A DNA stretch of 64,000 bases. It comes from Pseudomonadota bacterium. Lineage in GTDB: Bacteria > Pseudomonadota > Gammaproteobacteria > Burkholderiales > Chitinibacteraceae. The stretch is taken from NCBI GenBank assembly GCA_026399755.1, contig JAPLQI010000052.1, positions 62,001 to 126,000 of the forward strand, in the 5' to 3' direction. The notes under the pieces were generated by a model. That model ran no database searches, had not been told where the DNA came from, and saw nothing but the letters and a program-made list of their open reading frames with translations. Numbering within the stretch: position 1 is the first letter of the stretch; every line of letters starts with the position of its first letter. Positions 9,395-37,321 of the stretch are shown here, one piece after another. A program made the translations under genes and the position numbers.

Positions 9395-9664
9395 ACGATA
9401 GAAATTCTAGGGTGGATGTAGCCAAAGCTTATTCCGCCCTAATCGCTCTTACTCAACAACAAACCGGCTTAAATCAATGAGAGCTTGCTCACACACAAAA
9501 TAGAAACTTCCCCTTAAATCGCCATTATTTAAGAATTAGCAAAGCAATATGAAAGCTAAAGGCGTTTTGCACATTAAGCAAAGCGCAACAAGTGACCTAT
9601 TTGGGCTAGCCATTTTCACTTTTCAAATCAATACTACAGGCTGATGCAATCATAAGGTTTGAAT

Positions 9665-10972
9665 ATGCCAGCCCAGAAAATAATAACCCAATGGCGCATT
9701 CTGCAACCTATCCATTTTGTACTTGGCCTATTAATCCTATTGACCGTCACTTTATTGCTTTGGCAACACTATGGCATGAATTTATATTTACGCTTTGATC
9801 CTAGTAATTTTACAAAAGTCAGCGCAAACGACGATAGAGATGATGGCGAAGGTAAAAGCATAGGACAGCTCAGCCACATGCCAAACTACTGGCGTTTAAA
9901 CTGCCAACTCAAAGAAGGGCATCGCTCCCCCTACTGCTCAATTGATTTAGATCTCAGTAATGGTAAGCAAGGCGTTGATTTCTCAAAATACACAAACATC
10001 ACCATCCATTTCCGTTATCAAAATCTACGTGAGCAAGTCAATTTGGTGATGATTAATTTCAACCCAAAATATAGTATGGAGGATGATTATCGTAGCCAGA
10101 AATTTAACGAAATTTACCTGCCTGGCGCAATGGGCTGGAGCACGCACAGCATAGAATGGGCCCAATTTAATGTGGCTTCTTGGTGGATTGCTGATAGAAA
10201 AATCCCGCCTAATTGGGCCGACAATGAATTTACGAACATTCGTGAAATCCGTGTATCTACGGGGCTTTATCCCAAGAAAATGAATCACCAAATTGACTTG
10301 GCCTATATCGAATTACGTGGAAAATTAATTAATAATAATACTTTACAATTATTACTCCTCCTCTTATGGGGAGGCAGCGCTGCATTCTGGCTGATTACTG
10401 AATTACGCCGATCCATCCGCGCTTTACAGCGCAGTAATCAGCGGCAGCAAGATTTAGAGAATGCACAGCTCAATCTACAAAAAACCAATCAATTACTCGC
10501 AGAGCGCAGCATGCGTGATCCGCTTACCTCGGCATTTAATAGAGAAGGGCTCAGCGTATTACTCGCCAATGAGCCGCCCAATAGTGTACTCAGTATTATT
10601 TTTGTTGATATCGACCATTTCAAAAAGATTAATGATCAATATGGCCATGCGATGGGTGATCAAATGCTTTGCCTATTAGCCCAGCATATTCAGCAACAAA
10701 TTCGCCCCAGTGAAAAACTGATTCGCTTAGGCGGCGAAGAGTTCCTCTTACTTTGCCAGCACAGCTGCATTGCTCAGGCCGAGCAGCTCGCTGAAAAGCT
10801 ACGTTTATGGATATTTAGCCAAAGCTGGCCTACAGAAATCCCCCTGAGCTGTAGTTTTGGTGTGGCAGAACGACAGCCAGGGGAAAGCTTTGAAGCCGCA
10901 CTCCATAGAGCCGATCTCGCGCTTTACCGCGCCAAAGCAGGCGGTCGGAATCGAGTGGAGCTTGCGAAGTAA
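9665..10972 (+). CDS. Membrane-anchored GGDEF diguanylate cyclase
   Basis: About 435 residues. A membrane helix at about 18-38, a periplasmic region rich in aromatic residues to about 222, a second helix (LLLLLLWGGSAAFWLI), a short coiled coil, then a GGDEF domain from about 275. The active site is GGEEF (RLGGEEF near 356), with the metal-site FVDIDHFKKIND upstream, so it should make cyclic di-GMP from two GTP. I chose ATG at 9665, 7 bases after AAGG; a TTG at 9659 is less likely. The ligand of the periplasmic region is unknown. Confidence 0.9.
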   Translation: MPAQKIITQWRILQPIHFVLGLLILLTVTLLLWQHYGMNLYLRFDPSNFTKVSANDDRDDGEGKSIGQLSHMPNYWRLNCQLKEGHRSPYCSIDLDLSNGKQGVDFSKYTNITIHFRYQNLREQVNLVMINFNPKYSMEDDYRSQKFNEIYLPGAMGWSTHSIEWAQFNVASWWIADRKIPPNWADNEFTNIREIRVSTGLYPKKMNHQIDLAYIELRGKLINNNTLQLLLLLLWGGSAAFWLITELRRSIRALQRSNQRQQDLENAQLNLQKTNQLLAERSMRDPLTSAFNREGLSVLLANEPPNSVLSIIFVDIDHFKKINDQYGHAMGDQMLCLLAQHIQQQIRPSEKLIRLGGEEFLLLCQHSCIAQAEQLAEKLRLWIFSQSWPTEIPLSCSFGVAERQPGESFEAALHRADLALYRAKAGGRNRVELAK

Positions 10973-11198
10973 AGGCTGCGATGCAGCAAAACCTTGAAAC
11001 ACGGGGACTGAGAACAACAGGTGTAAAATTAAAACACTCGCTTTGAGTTTTGCATCTTCTCTACGTGTGAAAAATAAAGTGTTTTCCCTCTATAAGTCTC
11101 CCGTTTTCCCCTGCACAACGCCCCTCCCCAATCCCTTGAGGCCACCACTGCAAGATGTTCCAGCCATCACAGCCACACACTTGCAAGCGTTAAATCAT

Positions 11199-11270
11199 CG
11201 TAGGGCGGGTGAAACCCGCCATATTTTGGTATGAAATGCGGCTAAAAACGGCGGGTTTCACCCTCCCTAC
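11199..11270. repeat. Palindromic repeat, GTAGGGCGGGTG family
   Basis: Two arms, GTAGGGCGGGTGAAACCCGCC and its near-inverse at 11250-11270, flank about 29 bases. Related copies lie at 7081, 7308 and 15545. It sits in a 497-bp gap between the GGDEF gene and rbsK; the rest of that gap shows nothing else that I can name. Confidence 0.75.
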
Positions 11271-11469
11271 ACAATTAACTACCTACGGCATGGGTTTAAA
11301 TTGATCCCCCTCTCCCTCAAACCAGCTAGCCCTGCCCTCCCCCCATCAGGAAAATCCCGTAGTTTCTTTAAAAGCACTACATTTACTTGATTTAGATCTA
11401 TATTTTTTGCTGCGTACGGTTTAGCATTGCTCATAAATCAAGCCGCAATCATAAAAAGAAGGGTGCAAC

Positions 11470-12354
11470 ATGACAAAAGTAGTCGTCGTTGGCAGCATTA
11501 ATATGGATTTAGTCGTCCATACCCAGCAGTTTCCCCGCATGGGAGAAACGCTGTTTGGCGAGCAGTTTGCAACGCATCCAGGCGGCAAAGGGGCGAATCA
11601 GGCCGTGGCTGCACAGCGCCTTGGTGCCTCGGTTGCGATGGTGGGCTGTATAGGCAATGACGAATTCGGCCAAACGCTAAAAGCAGGCTTAGTGGCAGAA
11701 GGCATTGATACCCGCTGGCTAAAAACTAGCCCGGATACGGCTACCGGCGTGGCGCTAATTACCCTTTGCCATGGGGATAACGCCATCGTGGTGGTGCCAG
11801 GCGCAAATATGCAGCTTAGCCCTAGCGATATCAGCGCCGCAGAGGCCGCTTTTATCGATGCGGATGTGATTCTGGCCCAGCTGGAAATCCCTTTGGATAC
11901 AGTAATGGCCGCAGCAAAGCTCGCCCAAAAACATGGCAAGCCTTTCTTCCTGAATCCTGCACCTGCACAGGCTTTATCTGCCGAACTACTGGCGCTTTGC
12001 ACCCTACTCACCCCGAATGAATTTGAGCTGCTAGCAGCTCTTGGGGAGCTAGACGCTGATTGGAAAACAGTATTGGCTAAGCACGCTGCAGTGATGACTA
12101 AGGGCGGTGATGGTGCTTGGTTTAATCAGGGTGGGCAGCTTCAGCATCAAGCAGGCTTTAAGGTTGATGTAGTAGATAGCACGGGAGCGGGCGACACCTT
12201 TAACGGCGCACTCGCCACTTTCTGGCACCTAGGCATCGCGGAAGCCACAAGAAGAGCCAGCGCAGCAGGAGCTTTATCGGTTACCCGCGCTGGCGCACAG
12301 GGCGGCATGCCGACCCTTGCAGAACTCGAACCATTTTTAAAGAAGCAATCATGA
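11470..12354 (+). CDS. rbsK: Ribokinase
   Basis: A 294-residue PfkB-family sugar kinase phosphorylating D-ribose to ribose 5-phosphate in the cytoplasm. It opens VVVGSINMDLV and has the substrate-loop GGKGANQAVAA near 39-49 and the catalytic DSTGAGDTFNGAL motif near 238-250. An AGAAGGG ribosome-binding site precedes the ATG. It overlaps rbsD by 4 bp. Its place first in the operon differs from the E. coli order, where it is near the end. Confidence 0.95.
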   Translation: MTKVVVVGSINMDLVVHTQQFPRMGETLFGEQFATHPGGKGANQAVAAQRLGASVAMVGCIGNDEFGQTLKAGLVAEGIDTRWLKTSPDTATGVALITLCHGDNAIVVVPGANMQLSPSDISAAEAAFIDADVILAQLEIPLDTVMAAAKLAQKHGKPFFLNPAPAQALSAELLALCTLLTPNEFELLAALGELDADWKTVLAKHAAVMTKGGDGAWFNQGGQLQHQAGFKVDVVDSTGAGDTFNGALATFWHLGIAEATRRASAAGALSVTRAGAQGGMPTLAELEPFLKKQS

Positions 12355-12749
12355 AAAAGCACGGCATCTTAAATAGCGACATCGCTCGCGTTCTCGCCCA
12401 ATTGGGCCACACCGATAGCATTGTGATTGCCGACTGCGGCCTGCCGATTCCGGATCATGTAGAGCGCATCGATCTGGCGCTAAAATTAGGCCAACCTAGC
12501 TTTTTCGATGCGCTGCACGAAATTCTTTCCGACATGCAGGTAGAGCGTGCTGTGATCGCATCAGAATCCTTGGCTCTTAATCCTGCCGTAGCATCCAAGG
12601 CAGAAGAGATGTCTGCATCAGGAATTCATATTGATTTTGTTAGCCATGAAGAATTCAAACAACTTTGCCATAGTGCCAAAGCCGTGATCCGCACCGGCGA
12701 AGCATCGCCCTACGCCAACATCATCCTGCATTCTGGCGTGATTTTTTGA
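12351..12749 (+). CDS. rbsD: D-ribose pyranase
   Basis: A 132-residue RbsD/FucU-family protein that interconverts pyranose and furanose forms of ribose for the kinase. It opens KKHGILNSDIARVLAQLGHTD, with IADCGLPIP near 28 and a terminal NIILHSGVIF; these carry the expected catalytic His/Asp positions. ATGA overlap with rbsK indicates translational coupling. Confidence 0.95.
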   Translation: MKKHGILNSDIARVLAQLGHTDSIVIADCGLPIPDHVERIDLALKLGQPSFFDALHEILSDMQVERAVIASESLALNPAVASKAEEMSASGIHIDFVSHEEFKQLCHSAKAVIRTGEASPYANIILHSGVIF

Positions 12750-26996: not shown

Positions 26997-27329
26997 ATGA
27001 TTGGATTCCGAATAAAAACAGCCCGCGCACACCGCCAACTCAGCCAAGCTGACTTGGCTGAAATCGTTGGTGTAAAACAACCGAGCGTGAGTTCATGGGA
27101 GCGGGGAGATACAGACCCGACGATGGACAACCTGGCAATGATCGCCAATAGCCTGCAGGTAAGCATTGAATGGCTGGGGCGTGGCGTAGGAGAAATGACA
27201 AACGAAAGCTACATGCCCGCGCAAGTCAACGAGCAAAAGCCAATGGAAGAAGAGCTGCTGCAGCTCTTCAGAAAACTAAGCTGGACCAACCAGCAAGCGC
27301 TACTAGACTTTGTAAAGCGCTGGAAATAA
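26997..27329 (+). CDS. CI-like XRE-family prophage repressor
   Basis: 110 residues from an ATG at 26997. HTH at about 5-60 (RQLSQADLAEIVGVKQPSVSSWERGDTDP), then a short C-terminal helix region with no peptidase domain, so it lacks the RecA-dependent self-cleavage of lambda CI. Induction must then work differently, for example through an antirepressor. It is divergent from cro. Confidence 0.85.
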   Translation: MIGFRIKTARAHRQLSQADLAEIVGVKQPSVSSWERGDTDPTMDNLAMIANSLQVSIEWLGRGVGEMTNESYMPAQVNEQKPMEEELLQLFRKLSWTNQQALLDFVKRWK

Positions 27330-27352
27330 AAAAGGCCACATCTGTGGCCTTT
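27326..27352. terminator. Bidirectional terminator between cI and the tail operon
   Basis: AAAAAAGGCCACA, TC loop, TGTGGCCTTTTT. It ends the rightward repressor transcript and the leftward late operon. Confidence 0.9.
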
Positions 27353-27357
27353 TTGCA

Positions 27358-27585
27358 TCACACCTCAAACTGATAGACCGCTAGTACCGGTGCCTCGTTA
27401 ATAATCGCCCCGCTTTGCACGTAGACCAGCTTACCGGCAGGGATTTTTGTCCCATTCGCTAGGCTTTTCTGACCACTATCAATGCTTTCCAAAATACTCT
27501 GCCCATCGCCGTTAAAGCCCAGCACTCTGGCCACAAACGGCTGATCGCCTGCTAGTAATTGATTTAGCTGCTGCCATGGGTTCAT
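27358..27585 (-). CDS. Small phage tail-region protein, last late gene
   Basis: 75 residues from the ATG at 27585, overlapping the preceding gene by 4 bp (ATGA). It contains LGFNGDGQSILESIDSG and KIPAGKLVYVQSGAIINEAPVL, beta-rich in appearance. It could be a tail-tip accessory; no family is recognised. Confidence 0.65.
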   Translation of the reverse strand: MNPWQQLNQLLAGDQPFVARVLGFNGDGQSILESIDSGQKSLANGTKIPAGKLVYVQSGAIINEAPVLAVYQFEV

Positions 27586-29333
27586 TGCCTGCGCTCCAAT
27601 TCGATATTGCACGACACAATCCCCACTTCATCAGCGGAAAGAGAAATCTTGGTCAGCATGCAACGCTGGCCAGCCTTGCCTACCTGAATCAGCGACCCCA
27701 TATTTTTAAGTACTGGCGCAAATGCACACTCGGCGCTCACCCGCCAAGCAGGACCTGCCTCATTCAAGATCCGCCTGCCCCGCTCACGGCCAACGGCAGA
27801 TTCAGTAATAAAAGCATCGATCACCGTTGCTGCCCACACATTGCCAGCCGTGCCTGCACGCGTCACTTTCACACTTACACCGCCGGTTTTGCCAGTTACC
27901 AGCACCGCATTAGCCGGCGCGCGGCTATCTAATCGCTCAGCGATCGTTACCGTTGCGGATTCATCCAGAATCGCGGCCAGCGGCATAGCCGACCATTCCC
28001 ACCAAGATTGCGGATATCGGGGCACTACCGTGAAGGCTTTTTGATCTGAAACGGGCAAAACAATGCCGCCAGCCGCCTTGGCCACATCGGCCAACCAGCC
28101 TGCTGGTGTACGGCGCTCGATCGCCACAGTGTTAGGCGGCAAGCTCCAAACAGGCAGATTCCACTCAAAGCTGAAGCCCGTATCTGCCAAGCCCAAGGCT
28201 GCGAGAGCCGCAGAGCTGGTCCAATCCGCAACCAAATGGCTAGCGCTGGCGGCATAGCGATCGCCAAGCAAGGCATGCACGCCCACCAGCTTTACATTGC
28301 AGCGCTTCTCGCCAAAAACCTGCTGCAATTCAAAAGAATCCGCCAGCATCAGCCAGCGAGCTCCATCGATGGCCACCATAATTTCTACCGGCAAGCCATC
28401 CGCGCCAGCGCGTAATCGGGGCGCATCGGTCGCGGCGATGACGCACGAGCCAGACCAATAAAACGAATCAATATCATGATCTAAGTTTACAGACAGCAAG
28501 CGCAGCGGCGCGCCGGCTACGGAAGCAGACACTTTATGCATTAACGGCCTTCCTGAAATAGTACGAATCCATTGCTGGATAACGGTTTTACACGCCAAGC
28601 CCATGCCAGCCTGCAGCCCAAGCGGCGGCATGTAATCACCTGCCAGATTGATATTTGCAGCCAGCCCAAAGGGCGGGATATAGCAGCGATGCGGGGGCTG
28701 GGGAGGAATAACGACATCAGGCAGATGCCGATGCGGTACGGCCCGAGCGGCGTCCCAACGCAGATCTACATCGCGCCAGCGCAGCAAGCCTAAATCCCAC
28801 GGCAATAGCGCCGCTATGTGCATGGCCTGAGCAGACTTCCACGGCGCAGAAAACGGCAGCAAAGCCGCGACCGCCTGCTGCCAGCTCGCTTTTTTCACCG
28901 CCACCCGCAGCTCATTAGGGGCAAAATCCAGACGCGCAGCGCTAAATAGCGCCTGCATGCTTTGCCAGGGCAATACCCCCGACAACTGCCGAGCAAGGGC
29001 AAACTGCCAACCCGCGCCGGCGAAGGAATAGAGCGCATTAAATTTTCGCCACGGCAGGCCAATCAGCCCAGATCTAAACGCGGCCGCCTGCCATTGCATC
29101 CCCGCCGTTTTACTTCTTGCCAGCATGGTTTGCCACTGGCCTGCAGCGGCAACTTGCTGTTGCGACCCTGTTTGCCATTGCGCACCGGCCGATTTTTGCA
29201 GGCTGCGGCGCTTGGGGATGACAATGCCGGGCGGGTGCAGATCCAGCTTAGCGAGCAGGCCAGCGGGTGGCGAATACACGCCAGCCAGATCGATCTTAAC
29301 GAGCAGGCCATTAGGCGGGGAGTAAATAGCCAT
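27582..29333 (-). CDS. Tail-tip/hub-like protein with 14-residue aromatic repeats
   Basis: 583 residues. Two 16-residue repeats beginning YSPPxGL start at residues 4 and 20. Then eleven aromatic residues fall at exact 14-residue steps (Trp 53, 67, 81, 95, 109, 123, Phe 137, Trp 151, 165, 179, 193). Two more YxPPxGL repeats start at 218 and 234. Residues about 250-583 look like a phage hub or baseplate-type domain (WLMLADSFELQQVFGEKRCNVKLVG, ILNEAGPAWRVSAECAF). It is near the end of the late operon, as expected for tail-tip genes. I do not know a named family for the repeat part. Confidence 0.75.
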   Translation of the reverse strand: MAIYSPPNGLLVKIDLAGVYSPPAGLLAKLDLHPPGIVIPKRRSLQKSAGAQWQTGSQQQVAAAGQWQTMLARSKTAGMQWQAAAFRSGLIGLPWRKFNALYSFAGAGWQFALARQLSGVLPWQSMQALFSAARLDFAPNELRVAVKKASWQQAVAALLPFSAPWKSAQAMHIAALLPWDLGLLRWRDVDLRWDAARAVPHRHLPDVVIPPQPPHRCYIPPFGLAANINLAGDYMPPLGLQAGMGLACKTVIQQWIRTISGRPLMHKVSASVAGAPLRLLSVNLDHDIDSFYWSGSCVIAATDAPRLRAGADGLPVEIMVAIDGARWLMLADSFELQQVFGEKRCNVKLVGVHALLGDRYAASASHLVADWTSSAALAALGLADTGFSFEWNLPVWSLPPNTVAIERRTPAGWLADVAKAAGGIVLPVSDQKAFTVVPRYPQSWWEWSAMPLAAILDESATVTIAERLDSRAPANAVLVTGKTGGVSVKVTRAGTAGNVWAATVIDAFITESAVGRERGRRILNEAGPAWRVSAECAFAPVLKNMGSLIQVGKAGQRCMLTKISLSADEVGIVSCNIELERRQ

Positions 29334-29707
29334 TACGCCTCCGGCTGCAGCCGATCCAGCACGCCTGCGTTGAATTCATCTTGCGGGTCTAGGGCAATTA
29401 GATAGCACGGCACATCGGGAATGCCAGTCACGCTATACGTGCCATCGGCCGCACTGACGCCAGTTTTAATCAGCGCGCCGTCGGAGCGACGATAAATACG
29501 GTAGGGTATTTTTGCTGGTGCGCCATTACGAGTCAGGACCCCTGCTAGGCGTTTAATGCCAGAAGGCAAATCAATAACACCAGGCCCAATAACAAAAGGA
29601 GGGTCTTTGAATCGCGTGACATCATAGCTGGCATCCCACGGCAATGCCAACTGAGAAACAATCACCCTATTTATGTTAAAAAACATAACATTGGGCTCCA
29701 TCACCAA
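29333..29707 (-). CDS. Phage tail protein with carboxypeptidase-regulatory-like fold
   Basis: 124 residues. The C-terminal half (AGVLTRNGAPAKIPYRIYRRSDGALI, then SAADGTYSVTGIP) has the prealbumin-like beta-sandwich pattern used in phage and surface proteins. It shares its stop/start junction with the hub-like gene (1-bp overlap). A decorating or receptor-contact role is inferred. An N-terminal Met at residue 3 or 8 is also possible as start. Confidence 0.65.
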   Translation of the reverse strand: MVMEPNVMFFNINRVIVSQLALPWDASYDVTRFKDPPFVIGPGVIDLPSGIKRLAGVLTRNGAPAKIPYRIYRRSDGALIKTGVSAADGTYSVTGIPDVPCYLIALDPQDEFNAGVLDRLQPEA

Positions 29708-30780
29708 GGCCCCGTTAAATCAAAAAACAAATACCCATTTTCAGCGGGGGTAGGGGAGCCTGTATTTGTAAGTTTTGATAAAATTGGCAAAAGCTCACGC
29801 GAGCTCCCGTTTATCTGTTGAGTTACGCGTGAAAAACAATTATCGACACCATAAACCCACGCGTCTTTATCATTAAAGCTGCAAACAACCCCCCCGAGCC
29901 TACCGCGAAATATTTTACTACTTTCACAATACAAACGAATATCTGCTGCAGCCAATAACAGTTTATTAGAGTAAGGGTTTGGACTTTTAATTAATGGGAA
30001 AAAGCTATTTGAGTTATTAGAAACAAAAAGAGGAGAATTAAACAAACGAAGCACGCCCGATGAAATATCCCCTGCTACATCCTTATATGATTTATACATA
30101 CCAGGTCCATCACGAAGCAGAGGGAGAAAGAAATTAGGACTAGAAAATACCCCCCCCGCAGCATCACTAGTATTCTTTTGAGCAGGCCAAATAAATACTG
30201 AGTCGCCAGAGATCATACTAGAGTCAACAGAACCAAAGACTGCACACCCAAATAAAACCCCTTTCCGATCAGTCATATTTGTCATATTTTTCACAACCCC
30301 CTCTGTTCCTCCATTCCATGTGGAATTATTTGAAAAATATGGGACCAAGAAATAGAAATAATCCTTTTCACTATCTGCAAGTAATAACCACGGAACCACC
30401 ACTCCGTCATTTCGTCGATAACACAGTAAAAAATCCTTAGAAAATGGCACTCCGTTTACGCTACCTGACTGAGCTGTACCATCATCATTTAACCCTGTTA
30501 GCACATCAAACAACGCCATTGGCGCCGAGCCACGCAAATCCCCGCCATACATACTCGCCAAACAACGATCATCAAACGCCAACCAAGGCCGACTCGCTGC
30601 CCTTGCCTGAGGCTGAAACGCAATGACTTTCCCTGATGGCGATTTGATTTTCCCCCAGCCCAATCCAGCCTGCGTGCCATAGCCATCAACCAAGCATTTC
30701 TCTAAAACCACCGACAGCGAACTGGCCGCACCCAATTGCGGTGCGCCTGCGTCATCCCATCTAAAGCATCGAATTGTCAT
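29701..30780 (-). CDS. Hypothetical tail-tip or fibre protein
   Basis: 359 residues from the ATG at 30780 behind AAAGGAC. It is rich in Asn, Ser and aromatic residues, with WDDAGAPQL and MYGGDLRGSAPMALFDVLTGLNDDGTAQSG near the N-terminus. Its DNA from about 29840 to 30400 is visibly richer in A/T than its neighbours, suggesting recent exchange, as is common in host-range genes. No family recognised. Confidence 0.65.
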   Translation of the reverse strand: MTIRCFRWDDAGAPQLGAASSLSVVLEKCLVDGYGTQAGLGWGKIKSPSGKVIAFQPQARAASRPWLAFDDRCLASMYGGDLRGSAPMALFDVLTGLNDDGTAQSGSVNGVPFSKDFLLCYRRNDGVVVPWLLLADSEKDYFYFLVPYFSNNSTWNGGTEGVVKNMTNMTDRKGVLFGCAVFGSVDSSMISGDSVFIWPAQKNTSDAAGGVFSSPNFFLPLLRDGPGMYKSYKDVAGDISSGVLRLFNSPLFVSNNSNSFFPLIKSPNPYSNKLLLAAADIRLYCESSKIFRGRLGGVVCSFNDKDAWVYGVDNCFSRVTQQINGSSRELLPILSKLTNTGSPTPAENGYLFFDLTGPW

Positions 30781-30794
30781 ATCAAGTCCTTTAA

Positions 30795-32510
30795 TTAAAC
30801 GTCTGTATCGCCGCGCAATTGGATGCGCACGCTGTCTGTTGCTGGGCCTACCACGCCTTGCAGCGTTGCACGGCTTAGCCAAAATGGGGATTTGCCTGCG
30901 CTGGTGTTGAACCGGAGTTGATTACCCGCGTTCCAACCCGAGCCCCAGCCGCGCCGGTCGATAGAAAAATACGGCGTGCCGGTGGCTGGGTTTAGCGGGG
31001 CGACATCGGCATTGATGCTCACGCCTTCAGCGACTACACCGACCGATTCGCCGATGATTTTTACCGTTGTGGCATTGGTAAAATCGATACGCCAGCGCTC
31101 AGCGATTGCGCCGCGATTAGTGAGCGTGAGCGGGTATTGAGCGGTGTTGTATTGCGCGGCGATGGCTTGGCCAATCACTGTATTGGACCATTCGCCAGTC
31201 CAAGCGCCCTGCTCAAATGGCGGAGAGAAGCCAGCGACTAAATCACCAAGCAGTAAGGAGCCAGAAACTTGGGCATTAGCTGGCCAAGCTTTTTGCAATG
31301 GCACGGCAAGCGAAAGTGAAGCGGCCGCAGTATCAACCACAGACACCAGCGCCATTTCATCACGGGTATGGCGCACGCTGTACGGGCCTAAAAAGCCGAC
31401 CAGATTCAACGGATTGGCCCACGTTAAAACGCCAGTGGCCAAATCAATGCTATAGCGATCTGAATACACTTCACGCCCTGCTGCATCTTCGACAACTACA
31501 GCAGACAAACCGGCACGGGTAGCCGTTGTGCTACCCGCCACCGGCGTTGCCACACTCGTTACCGCTGTATCGTGCAGCACGATCACATCGCCGGCGCGCC
31601 AAAGATCTACACGGCCGGATGGCGGCATTTTGTCCAGATCTAGCCCAACAATCGCAGCATCAAAGCCCGGATAGCTAGGCGGGCAGATCGATGCTGCCAT
31701 GCGATCGATCAGTAATTTCTTATCGCCTGCTGCCGCCGCTGTCGTCAGTGTGGCCACGCCAACGGCACGAAAGCCGTCGCCGCGCAGCGACCCCGTATTT
31801 TGAGCGGTAGCTTGAGCAACCACTTCTGTTGCCGTAACCCGAAATACACTTGACGTTGAAAACTGAAAGGGATCGATTGTGACTGCACACGAATCAATCC
31901 AGCCCCCTTGTGACATTGCTTCTACACGAACGACAGAGCCGACCGTTTTAATACTCTGAGCAAACGACAGCTCACCGCCACCGCCGCCACCACCACCTTG
32001 ACTATTGAATCGATGAATCAATATCTCGCCAACAATCGGGGCGGCGCTCAGCGCGGGTGGGCGACCATCCCTCAAAAATGCACTACAAGAAAGCGTTAGC
32101 TTTGTCGCCCCAGCCTCAATGCCTGCGGTATTTTCAACCGCCCATGTAACGCCCATTTTTTTACCATCGCTCGGCACCCAATCGCCTTGCATTCGAGTAC
32201 GAATATCCGCCCGCGTTTCTGCCCAGGCATTCGCCCGCAGCAGGCAGACATCGATCAGTGGATCGCTTGCATCGTTCTGCAAAATGACGTGGGCGCCATA
32301 AAACGGCTGTGAATCATCGCTGGCCACGCCGGCGAATACTTTGCGAAGCGATACGCGGCCGGTGGTTTTGTCTAAGTGCGACACATCGGGGAATAGATTA
32401 TTGGCGCGGCCAGATTGCAAAGCCGTGCCCGTCATCATGCCGCCGCCGTCGCTAGTGTCATCTAGCCGGTTGCTTTGCAGCAGCACGAGGTTTTCTGTTG
32501 TTAAAGGCAT
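30795..32510 (-). CDS. Phage tail structural protein
   Basis: 571 residues, with an eight-Gly run near residue 170 that separates an N-terminal region from a beta-rich remainder. PFYGAHVILQNDASDPLIDVCLL and DFTNATTVKIIGESVGVV are characteristic stretches; the latter resembles tail-associated beta-sandwich modules. It lies between the 129-residue tail gene and the tip genes, so it is part of the distal tail. No catalytic motif. Confidence 0.7.
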   Translation of the reverse strand: MPLTTENLVLLQSNRLDDTSDGGGMMTGTALQSGRANNLFPDVSHLDKTTGRVSLRKVFAGVASDDSQPFYGAHVILQNDASDPLIDVCLLRANAWAETRADIRTRMQGDWVPSDGKKMGVTWAVENTAGIEAGATKLTLSCSAFLRDGRPPALSAAPIVGEILIHRFNSQGGGGGGGGELSFAQSIKTVGSVVRVEAMSQGGWIDSCAVTIDPFQFSTSSVFRVTATEVVAQATAQNTGSLRGDGFRAVGVATLTTAAAAGDKKLLIDRMAASICPPSYPGFDAAIVGLDLDKMPPSGRVDLWRAGDVIVLHDTAVTSVATPVAGSTTATRAGLSAVVVEDAAGREVYSDRYSIDLATGVLTWANPLNLVGFLGPYSVRHTRDEMALVSVVDTAAASLSLAVPLQKAWPANAQVSGSLLLGDLVAGFSPPFEQGAWTGEWSNTVIGQAIAAQYNTAQYPLTLTNRGAIAERWRIDFTNATTVKIIGESVGVVAEGVSINADVAPLNPATGTPYFSIDRRGWGSGWNAGNQLRFNTSAGKSPFWLSRATLQGVVGPATDSVRIQLRGDTDV

Positions 32511-32512
32511 GT

Positions 32513-32902
32513 TTAGACCGTGAGTAATTTAAGGGATACAACATAAACATCAGTGGGGCGTGGCACCGCGATCCGCCTGATGGGCGCAGCATCGATCGGC
32601 TTATCTGATTGCCGCCAGCGCACAGTAAATACGCGATCATCGGCCAGCGTTAATTGCATGTTTTCTGCTTTGGCCAGACGCGTCTGCAGCTGCTCGAGCT
32701 GCAAGCGTGTCACCCAGCCCAAATCCCGCTCGCCTTTGAGTGTGATTGGTCGGCCAGCCTGCATGACGCCCTCTTGAATCATCATCGTGCCATCCAGCGC
32801 CCGGGACACTTTTTGCTTAATCGGTGTCCAGTCGAATTCATCGGTCCAAATGAGGCCCGAAGACAGCTCGATACCATCTAAGAAAATAAAGCTGCTACTC
32901 AT
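32513..32902 (-). CDS. Distal-tail-like small phage protein
   Basis: 129 residues. The opening FIFLDGIELSSGLIWTDEFDWTPIKQ and the LEQLQTRLAKAENMQLTLADDRVFTVRWR region resemble proteins encoded just after the tape measure. It overlaps the tape measure gene by 4 bp. The role is inferred from position. Confidence 0.7.
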   Translation of the reverse strand: MSSSFIFLDGIELSSGLIWTDEFDWTPIKQKVSRALDGTMMIQEGVMQAGRPITLKGERDLGWVTRLQLEQLQTRLAKAENMQLTLADDRVFTVRWRQSDKPIDAAPIRRIAVPRPTDVYVVSLKLLTV

Positions 32903-36568: not shown

Positions 36569-37321
36569 TTACAACATTTCAATCACGCCCAACTGGCCCA
36601 TCTGCGCGTTATTCGGCGCGGTTGGGTCTGCCAGCAGTTCGGCTTCTAAATCCAGCTCGCCAAACTTTTTATTACTGATGAGATCGATCACTTTGGCGGG
36701 GTCAAAAGTGACACGCCACAGGCTTAAACGAGCCTCACGGCCGCTTTGCGCCTTGTTATTGCCCTTAAACAGCACCTCATACTCAGTAGGGTCTGTACTA
36801 AAAATACCGACGTTTACAGCACTGGCATATGTGTAATTGGCCTTAACCGGCATCACAAACGGGCCGGTAATACTGAGTACTTCAAAGGTGCCGAACTGCG
36901 GATCAAGGCGGTAATGAGTGCCTTCAGTCAGCGATAACGGCGTGCCGGTTGAATCTTTCAGCGTCACCGCGCTGACTGCACCATGCGCCAGCTTATAAAT
37001 GCCGCCGACTTCGAGCGTGGCAAAGCTTTCATTCGTGACCGAACCGCCCACCACCGCCAAGCTATTGGCATGCAGGGCCATAGCCGCAATTTCAGGATCA
37101 AACTGTGAGGTCTTCAGCTTTAAGCTGGCATCGGGTGAGCCATAGCGCACATCAATCGTGCCCTCGCCATTACTGCCTTCTAACTTGGTTTTGTCGCGCT
37201 TGAGCGTGAGCTGAAAGTCAGGGCAATTGCCCAGCAAACGAAAATGGCTCGTGCCTTTTTTTCTGATTAGCACTTGGCCATCAAAGCTAAAGTGCTCGCG
37301 GATAAATGGAGTGGCTGGCAT
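36569..37321 (-). CDS. Major tail tube protein
   Basis: 250 residues, beta-rich. The pattern RLLGNCPDFQLTLKRDKTKLEGSNGEG and ANYTYASAVNVGIFSTDPTEYEVLFKGNNKAQSG fits tail tube proteins of long-tailed phages. It lies directly upstream of the tape measure gene, as expected. No tail-assembly chaperone frame is visible between the two, which is unusual. Confidence 0.8.
   Translation of the reverse strand: MPATPFIREHFSFDGQVLIRKKGTSHFRLLGNCPDFQLTLKRDKTKLEGSNGEGTIDVRYGSPDASLKLKTSQFDPEIAAMALHANSLAVVGGSVTNESFATLEVGGIYKLAHGAVSAVTLKDSTGTPLSLTEGTHYRLDPQFGTFEVLSITGPFVMPVKANYTYASAVNVGIFSTDPTEYEVLFKGNNKAQSGREARLSLWRVTFDPAKVIDLISNKKFGELDLEAELLADPTAPNNAQMGQLGVIEML

Follow-up and report, generated by a model that had tools for sequence, protein, structure and literature searches.

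The window, by which we mean the entire 64,000-nucleotide stretch of DNA that was analyzed, carries a prophage tail module whose genes, in leftward order, encode the major tail protein, the tape measure protein, phrog_4408, phrog_6128, PHROG 9600, a 124-aa protein, the array protein considered here, and an 84-aa protein (Table 1). No contractile sheath family was found among the 26 proteins scanned against PHROGs (the window holds 126 mechanical frames). The array protein matches PHROG 6079 over residues 43 to 546 (profile positions 57 to 558 of 605), as do all 40 members of the alignment that we call A7. Together with the tail-hub fold of its C terminus, described below, this match upholds the initial annotation of a phage tail protein, here one that belongs to the tail module of a prophage. 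When the source genome was searched with this protein, the one match was the gene itself.

Table 1. Genes and protein features of the tail module, in window coordinates
Feature	Position	Strand	Basis
84-aa gene, overlaps end of hub gene	27358..27612	-	phrog_5076
Array and hub protein gene, 583 aa	27582..29333	-	PHROG 6079 "tail protein," E 4.8e-59
C-terminal hub domain, predicted gp27/Mu gp44 fold (residues 264-583)	27585..28544	-	AlphaFold2 and Foldseek
Downstream bracket, two 16-residue YxPPxGL... motifs (residues 218-246)	28596..28682	-	Match to upstream bracket
Array, 11 aromatics at 14-residue spacing (residues 53-193; codon of residue 53 starts at 29177, codon of residue 193 ends at 28755)	28755..29177	-	Translation and spacing count
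Upstream bracket, two 16-residue YxPPxGL... motifs (residues 4-32)	29238..29324	-	Match to downstream bracket
124-aa tail-module gene, directly upstream of array/hub gene	29333..29707	-	Position in tail module
393-aa protein	29701..30882	-	PHROG 9600 "tail assembly protein"
571-aa tail-module protein	30795..32510	-	phrog_6128
129-aa tail-module protein	32513..32902	-	phrog_4408
Tape measure protein, 1206 aa	32899..36519	-	Pfam TMP_3, PHROG 2335
Major tail protein with Ig-like domain	36569..37321	-	PHROG 807

A MAG that bears the title Janthinobacterium sp. contains a relative (L158) 90% identical to the array protein. When the window phage is compared with two relatives, identity is 96% in the hub and 80 to 88% in the array, and it is 50 to 59% over most of the length of the 393-aa protein and 48 to 83% in the 124-aa protein, which makes these two the most divergent among the tail proteins compared. 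Because identity is lower there than in the hub and array, receptor choice may lie in these faster-changing upstream neighbors. Two observations on the neighboring genes can be added. The PHROG 9600 protein, a candidate receptor-binding protein, shows a weak lag-14 excess (z of 3.0 for all residues and 2.8 for aromatics). The tape measure protein has strong similarity lags at 14, 18, 7, 28, and 21 (z of 7.5 at 14), a pattern partly like that of heptad coiled coils, and lag 14 is outside its four best aromatic lags.

The C-terminal hub domain

In the AlphaFold2 model of the window protein, computed with a 40-sequence alignment, the ten-residue mean pLDDT is 59 to 92 across residues 261 to 530 (at least 75 in 25 of 27 blocks) and 45 to 72 after residue 530. 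Compared with the PDB by Foldseek, this model returned 52 matches at an E value of ≤0.001, with 3d37_A at 6.4e-13 and Mu gp44 (1wru) at 3.7e-10; 3d37, 3cdd, Mu gp44, T4 gp27, the R2 pyocin hub, and VgrG proteins are among the 50 of these 52 matches that were listed. An Acidovorax relative (L171) gave 58 matches at the same threshold, with the same names among the matches listed. By sequence, the window protein alone had no match in the PDB, and a profile of seven hub domains (A3) had Mu gp44 as its best PDB match, a weak one (E 0.016). Based on the modeled structure, the C-terminal 320 residues are a tail-hub fold of the gp27/Mu gp44 type.

Hubs of the gp27/Mu gp44 class are trimeric, with which several PDB entry titles agree, and by analogy the hub of the window phage would also be a trimer. 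What the window hub shares with the gp27, Mu gp44, and VgrG hubs is the fold of these 320 residues; it differs in being preceded by a 14-residue aromatic array, whose profile retrieved no related chain from the PDB. Other hubs are also trailed by cap or spike proteins, to which the short separate gene after the window-type hub is comparable. Overall, the array protein can be described as a hub of the gp27 type that bears a periodic extension of an unusual kind. According to the available text of PMC8541194, mass spectrometry of virions detected a relative, p48 of the mitomycin-inducible Shewanella phage MuM16-1. Identity with the hub of phage JBD30 was dropped because a family member (L010) has no PDB relative by sequence (one chance-level match, E 0.73) and because the JBD30 hub, as outlined in the accessible part of PMC11445458, has seven domains and the form of a trophy cup, like that of T5. 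What is available of a paper on the hub of phage LSH1 (PMC13243795) describes other hubs.

The 14-residue period

In the translated gene, residues 53, 67, 81, 95, 109, 123, 151, 165, 179, and 193 are Trp and residue 137 is Phe, that is, 11 aromatic residues spaced exactly 14 apart. The initial annotation had reported this array at the position given in Table 1, and the count holds: the longest run of W, Y, or F at any fixed spacing from 3 to 40 is the run of 11 at spacing 14, and the maximum run was 6 both in 5,000 shuffles of residues 41 to 205 (reached six times) and in 1,000 shuffles of the whole protein. The frequent Gln after Trp that was noted at the same time is found at 6 of the 10 array Trp residues. 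An additional Trp lies at residue 186, midway between 179 and 193.

What maintains such a period? The 42-nt units of the window array have a mean identity of 37% in DNA and 22% in protein, and Tandem Repeats Finder, applied to window positions 27000 to 30000, found only a 10-nt repeat present twice at 28338 to 28357, outside the array; recent tandem DNA duplication is thus ruled out as the origin. Between the window protein and its close relatives L001 and L158, none of the 11 aromatic positions differs, whereas 44 positions at the other 13 phases do, and dN/dS among the three sequences is 0.19 to 0.21 in residues 47 to 206 versus 0.05 to 0.06 in the hub. These comparisons support the idea that the aromatic positions are under constraint, and they agree with the original suggestion that the period is held by selection and not by recent duplication.

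Relatives for a wider comparison were drawn from phages, viral contigs, and genomes. In a set of ten proteins, the longest lag-14 runs were 11, 7, 5, 6, 2, 5, 7, 11, 4, and 6, the run of 2 belonging to an uncultured phage protein (L011) that carries other repeats. Aromatic pairs in 63 proteins, the window's included, exceeded expectation at lag 14 (307 versus 119; 2.58-fold), lag 28 (281 versus 113; 2.49-fold), and lag 42 (204 versus 106; 1.92-fold), and lag 14 was among the longest-run lags in 33 of the 63. Lags 12 and 29 were also in excess in this set (1.5 and 1.64), and therefore some arrays slip. At least one run of three or more units is present in 46 of 68 representatives that are below 60% identity to one another. 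When all residues of the 68 are scored with BLOSUM62, a multiple of 14 (14, 28, 42, or 56) is among the three best lags in 56, against about 13 by chance, and in none of the other 12; the conservation of spacing in homologues that the initial annotation had made a point of reference is thus borne out for the former and not for the latter. The C-terminal domains of the same 68 proteins show no period (mean z of -0.11 at 14, -1.36 at 28, and 0.40 at 42). Arrays of 11 WQEA... units are present at both L171 and L166, two loci from Acidovorax, and the period is kept in proteins that are about 25% identical. As a possible sign that whole units are gained or lost, gap lengths in the alignments fall from 5 to 11 and have a second peak at 13 to 15, in pairs that are non-independent and with gaps that are ambiguous in repeats. 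The lag comparisons support a 14-residue spacing that is family-wide and has been kept though the rest of the array has changed.

These data also bear on the simplest possibility, which is that the array is a flexible linker whose aromatic spacing arises from composition or decayed duplication and has no function. Low predicted order and evolution faster than that of the hub would fit a linker, but a dN/dS of about 0.2, 11 aromatic positions unchanged in three sequences, and the recurrence of the same period in such distant proteins speak against it, and we regard it as very improbable.

Several further observations were made among the relatives. In L011 (2771-5152), several copies of an F-S-A-x-L-D-D-F-T-G-like motif precede the hub, a repeat of another kind close to where the array lies in other members. 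Some relatives, such as L052 and L171, have an L-P-x-L-x-G repeat before the array in their N termini, with a spacing of about 20 residues by eye, and paired V-x-L-x-F-like motifs that flank the array on both sides. A frame of 202 aa in a genome of the same order (G038; L006:970-1578), which contains 7-residue His/Cys repeats (THVDTCH-like), matched PHROG 6079 at an E value of 1.4e-7 and was set aside as a probably unrelated protein. Frames of one length, 613 aa, with equal search scores occur in three gut MAGs labeled Eggerthellaceae, Aeriscardovia, and Clostridia (L192, L193, and L194) and are possibly one phage placed in wrong bins.

No named repeat family covers the array in Pfam, NCBIfam, or the PDB sequences, as the initial annotation had supposed. 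PHROG 6079 covers both array and hub; its entry says only "tail protein" and leaves the repeat and the hub fold unnamed. None of the literature titles and opening abstracts listed describes a phage tail or hub protein whose repeat is 14 residues long or rich in Trp, in a search with poor coverage of subscription journals and without bioRxiv that is no proof of absence. In the tape measure proteins treated in the accessible portion of PMC3271669, regularly spaced W/F residues anchor small auxiliary proteins. That repeat (11 or 11-11-18) resembles the array in its fixed-spacing aromatics in a tail protein and its variable number of units; the array differs in having a period of 14 and in lying in the hub gene, the tape measure protein of the window phage being a separate gene. 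The 14-residue aromatic spacing is therefore a real, conserved structural feature without a name as a repeat.

Flanking motifs and neighboring genes

The array of the window protein is bracketed by paired motifs (Table 1), and the two brackets, residues 4 to 32 and 218 to 246, match each other over 29 ungapped residues with a score of 75. Across 68 proteins, the upstream end scored a mean of 34.3 against its own downstream end, compared with 27.0 for permutations (best of 5,000, 30.8). The own downstream end took first rank in 5 of the 68 proteins and one of the three best ranks in 13; only certain lineages therefore show the effect clearly.

Must the array be joined to a hub? A four-unit profile (A10) run against 299 genomes of the phylum matched four, the window's own included. 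In one of them (G440, locus L212), a 501-aa frame at 9437 to 10942 consists largely of array units by eye, and the hub is a separate gene at 10983 to 12359 in another frame. The spacings of this array mix 12, 13, and 14 (z of 4.4 at lag 14 and 2.8 at lag 12); it matches PHROG 6079 weakly at positions 96 to 209 (E 1.3e-6, no single stretch passing 0.001), and the adjacent hub matches at positions 292 to 474 (E 4.6e-24). The same array type occurs in G443 on two contigs, on one of which (L214) a hub-type frame adjoins the array in another frame and on the other of which (L213) only the array is seen. The A10 match in G537 falls in a 44-aa frame. As judged from the reading frames, the array is separable from the hub and is a gene of its own in G440, and G443 is probably a second genome with array and hub as neighboring separate genes. 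Neither viral contigs nor phage records yielded a match when queried with the stand-alone array of L212. Elsewhere in this split-gene tail module (L212:6725-7660), a 311-aa frame has the look, by eye, of a glycosidase-type beta-propeller.

Like the 84-aa gene of the window, the genes after the hubs of phages S1, ACPWH, U8, and MuM16-1 belong to phrog_5076. Of 155 loci with enough sequence beyond the hub, 154 have a 60- to 110-aa frame that starts close to the hub stop; 152 of 155 such small-gene sequences, the window's included, fit one profile that was built from these same sequences. In L011, a phrog_5076-type domain is fused to the hub C terminus (residues 720 to 793, E 1.2e-24). Because of this fusion, we infer that the phrog_5076-type protein is a hub cap and not an array binder.

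The shape of the array

AlphaFold2 gave residues 1 to 260 of the window protein ten-residue mean pLDDT values of 26 to 41, and its low-confidence model contains no strand in residues 1 to 263 and no helix of at least four residues in residues 1 to 260. For L171, with a 53-sequence alignment, the model has one helix at residues 119 to 196, about half of the array (pLDDT of 59 to 72 over residues 131 to 190, lower at the ends), the rest being coil. The regular coil of a beta-solenoid is absent from both models, each of low confidence in the array. The array profile found no structural relative in the PDB; its single match was a ketosteroid-isomerase-like protein at an E value of 0.66.

A unit profile was pooled from 271 units of 46 of the 68 representatives, in which units and relatives are non-independent. 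It reads approximately V/L, x, S/A, x, aromatic, Q, D/E, A/G, x, P/R, L/V, R, A, A, with a recurring core of W-Q-[DE]-[AG]. Besides the aromatic, the most hydrophobic positions are +6 (0.48), +10, which is also -4 (0.40), +12, which is also -2 (0.31), and +4 (0.29), the next being 0.20. Large hydrophobics stand at 0.20, 0.29, 0.48, 0.17, 0.40, and 0.31 at the even positions and at 0.08, 0.13, 0.14, 0.12, 0.15, 0.20, and 0.13 at the odd ones. With the aromatic column excluded, period 2 explains 0.55 of the variance (p 0.001 alone, 0.09 against the best of seven harmonics), and period 3.5 explains 0.10; on the Fauchere-Pliska scale, the values are 0.37 for period 2 and 0.30 for period 7. The autocorrelation of VILMFWY over the 46 arrays is negative at lags 1, 3, 5, 7, and 9 (z of -5.0 to -8.2; -6.6 at lag 3 and -5.8 at lag 7), positive at lags 4, 6, and 8 (z of 4.1 to 7.4, the highest at lag 4), and neutral at lag 2 (z of -0.4). 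Without the aromatics, the even-lag signal falls to about zero. Depletion at lags 1 and 3 also occurs in the hub control (z of -13.5 and -14.0) and is therefore not specific to the array, which weakens the three-chain reading set out below. Alternation is not clear in the 11 units of the window itself and is absent from the L159/L160/L163/U8 clade (0.01 to 0.02 of variance). G or P occupies +3 in 28% of pooled units (background, about 16%), -1 in 29%, and +5 in 27%; at +3 in the window, the count is 2 of 11. With these caveats, the pooled hydrophobicity leans to extended beta structure over helix.

Can one chain account for this pattern? The initial annotation suggested a regular solenoid with one aromatic per turn. 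A single-chain beta-solenoid or beta-hairpin stack would suit the strict period and the tendency to alternation, and beta-rolls with about 14 residues per coil exist in a plant ice-binding protein, which we count in its favor. On the other side, AlphaFold2 produced none with alignments of 40 and 53 sequences, and the pooled hydrophobics lie on one parity, whereas two 7-residue halves would be expected to swap parity. The solenoid is thus not borne out by the models, and we consider it unlikely. An alpha-helical or coiled-coil array, in which 14 residues would make up two heptads and the aromatic would take alternate core positions, draws on the helix in the L171 model, on the enrichment at lag 4, and on a window array that looks rich in Ala, Gln, Leu, and Arg. 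Yet lags 3 and 7 are depleted where a helix should enrich them (lag 3 being negative in the hub too), period 3.5 explains far less than period 2, and G or P reaches 27 to 29% at three positions of the unit, all of which leaves a helical array quite unlikely.

We posit, at a probability of about 0.35, that the array is a trimeric beta shaft resembling the triple beta-spiral. In this proposed mechanism, the trimeric hub would gather three chains, which would build a beta-structured shaft in which each unit adds one aromatic to an internal ladder, and this shaft would extend outward from the hub and serve as an appendage of the tail tip or as a spacer. The lack of a confident array fold in single-chain AlphaFold models is expected on the shaft reading, because the fold would need three chains. 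A figure legend in PMC3150272 gives the hydrophobic positions of the triple beta-spiral as c, e, g, k, and m and the turn as j. If the array aromatic is taken as g, the hydrophobics of the pooled unit at -4, -2, +4, and +6 fall on c, e, k, and m of the spirals of adenovirus fiber and reovirus sigma1, and the small residue at +3 of the pooled unit (Ala/Gly) falls on j. The array differs from that repeat in its period (14 rather than the usual 15 residues), in weak G/P at j, in a k position that varies by clade (it lacks hydrophobic character in the clades of Shewanella and S1), in the aromatic at g, and in having no sequence match to it. The resemblance was spotted only after the profile was seen. 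Because of this post hoc match, the period of 14, and the clade-variable position, the array is not filed as a member of the triple beta-spirals, although by analogy it may work like one. The stand-alone array of L212, with its mixed spacings and no covalent link to the hub, counts against the shaft.

Could the array instead work without a fold of its own? As an extended anchor tape, each of its aromatic units would bind a small tail protein or a repeated surface. No confident array fold is predicted, the W-Q-[DE]-[AG] core resembles a linear motif, almost every locus has a small gene after the hub, and the published tape measure repeat, as far as the available text of PMC3271669 goes, offers a precedent at 11-residue spacing. 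Against this stand the L011 fusion, which points to a hub cap, the hint of packing within the array in a hydrophobic parity that goes beyond the aromatic, and, in the single pair of loci compared, array lengths that do not follow tape lengths (the window combines 11 units with a tape of 1206 aa, and L212 combines a 501-aa array with a 1286-aa tape frame). We hold an anchor tape to be possible, though doubtful. The same mismatch led us to drop a tube ruler, for which our own arithmetic had set 14 extended residues at about one tail ring.

Returning to the trimeric beta shaft, a more specific version, which we think rather improbable, is an undescribed fiber fold of siphophages of Gram-negative hosts. 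It would be a three-chain beta shaft whose aromatic ladder has a rung at every 14th residue; as a cassette flanked by matched end motifs, it would precede a gp27-type hub, and it could also be a gene of its own. The named host genera of the matched phages are Gram-negative, though L192 to L194 come from MAGs labeled as other groups. In a bolder form, we speculate that alternating strands might enter the outer membrane on contact and line the DNA path.

Phage DNA exits through the hub at the tail tip, and few siphophage hubs are structurally known. The hub family described here is widespread and follows a strict rule that has no name, an aromatic at every 14th residue, and this rule has outlasted most other residues of the region. 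The naturally split genes and the virion-confirmed relative make the structure of the array directly testable. If the trimeric shaft proves true, the array would be a new fiber repeat recognizable from sequence and would supply an annotation rule for tail proteins that are now called hypothetical.
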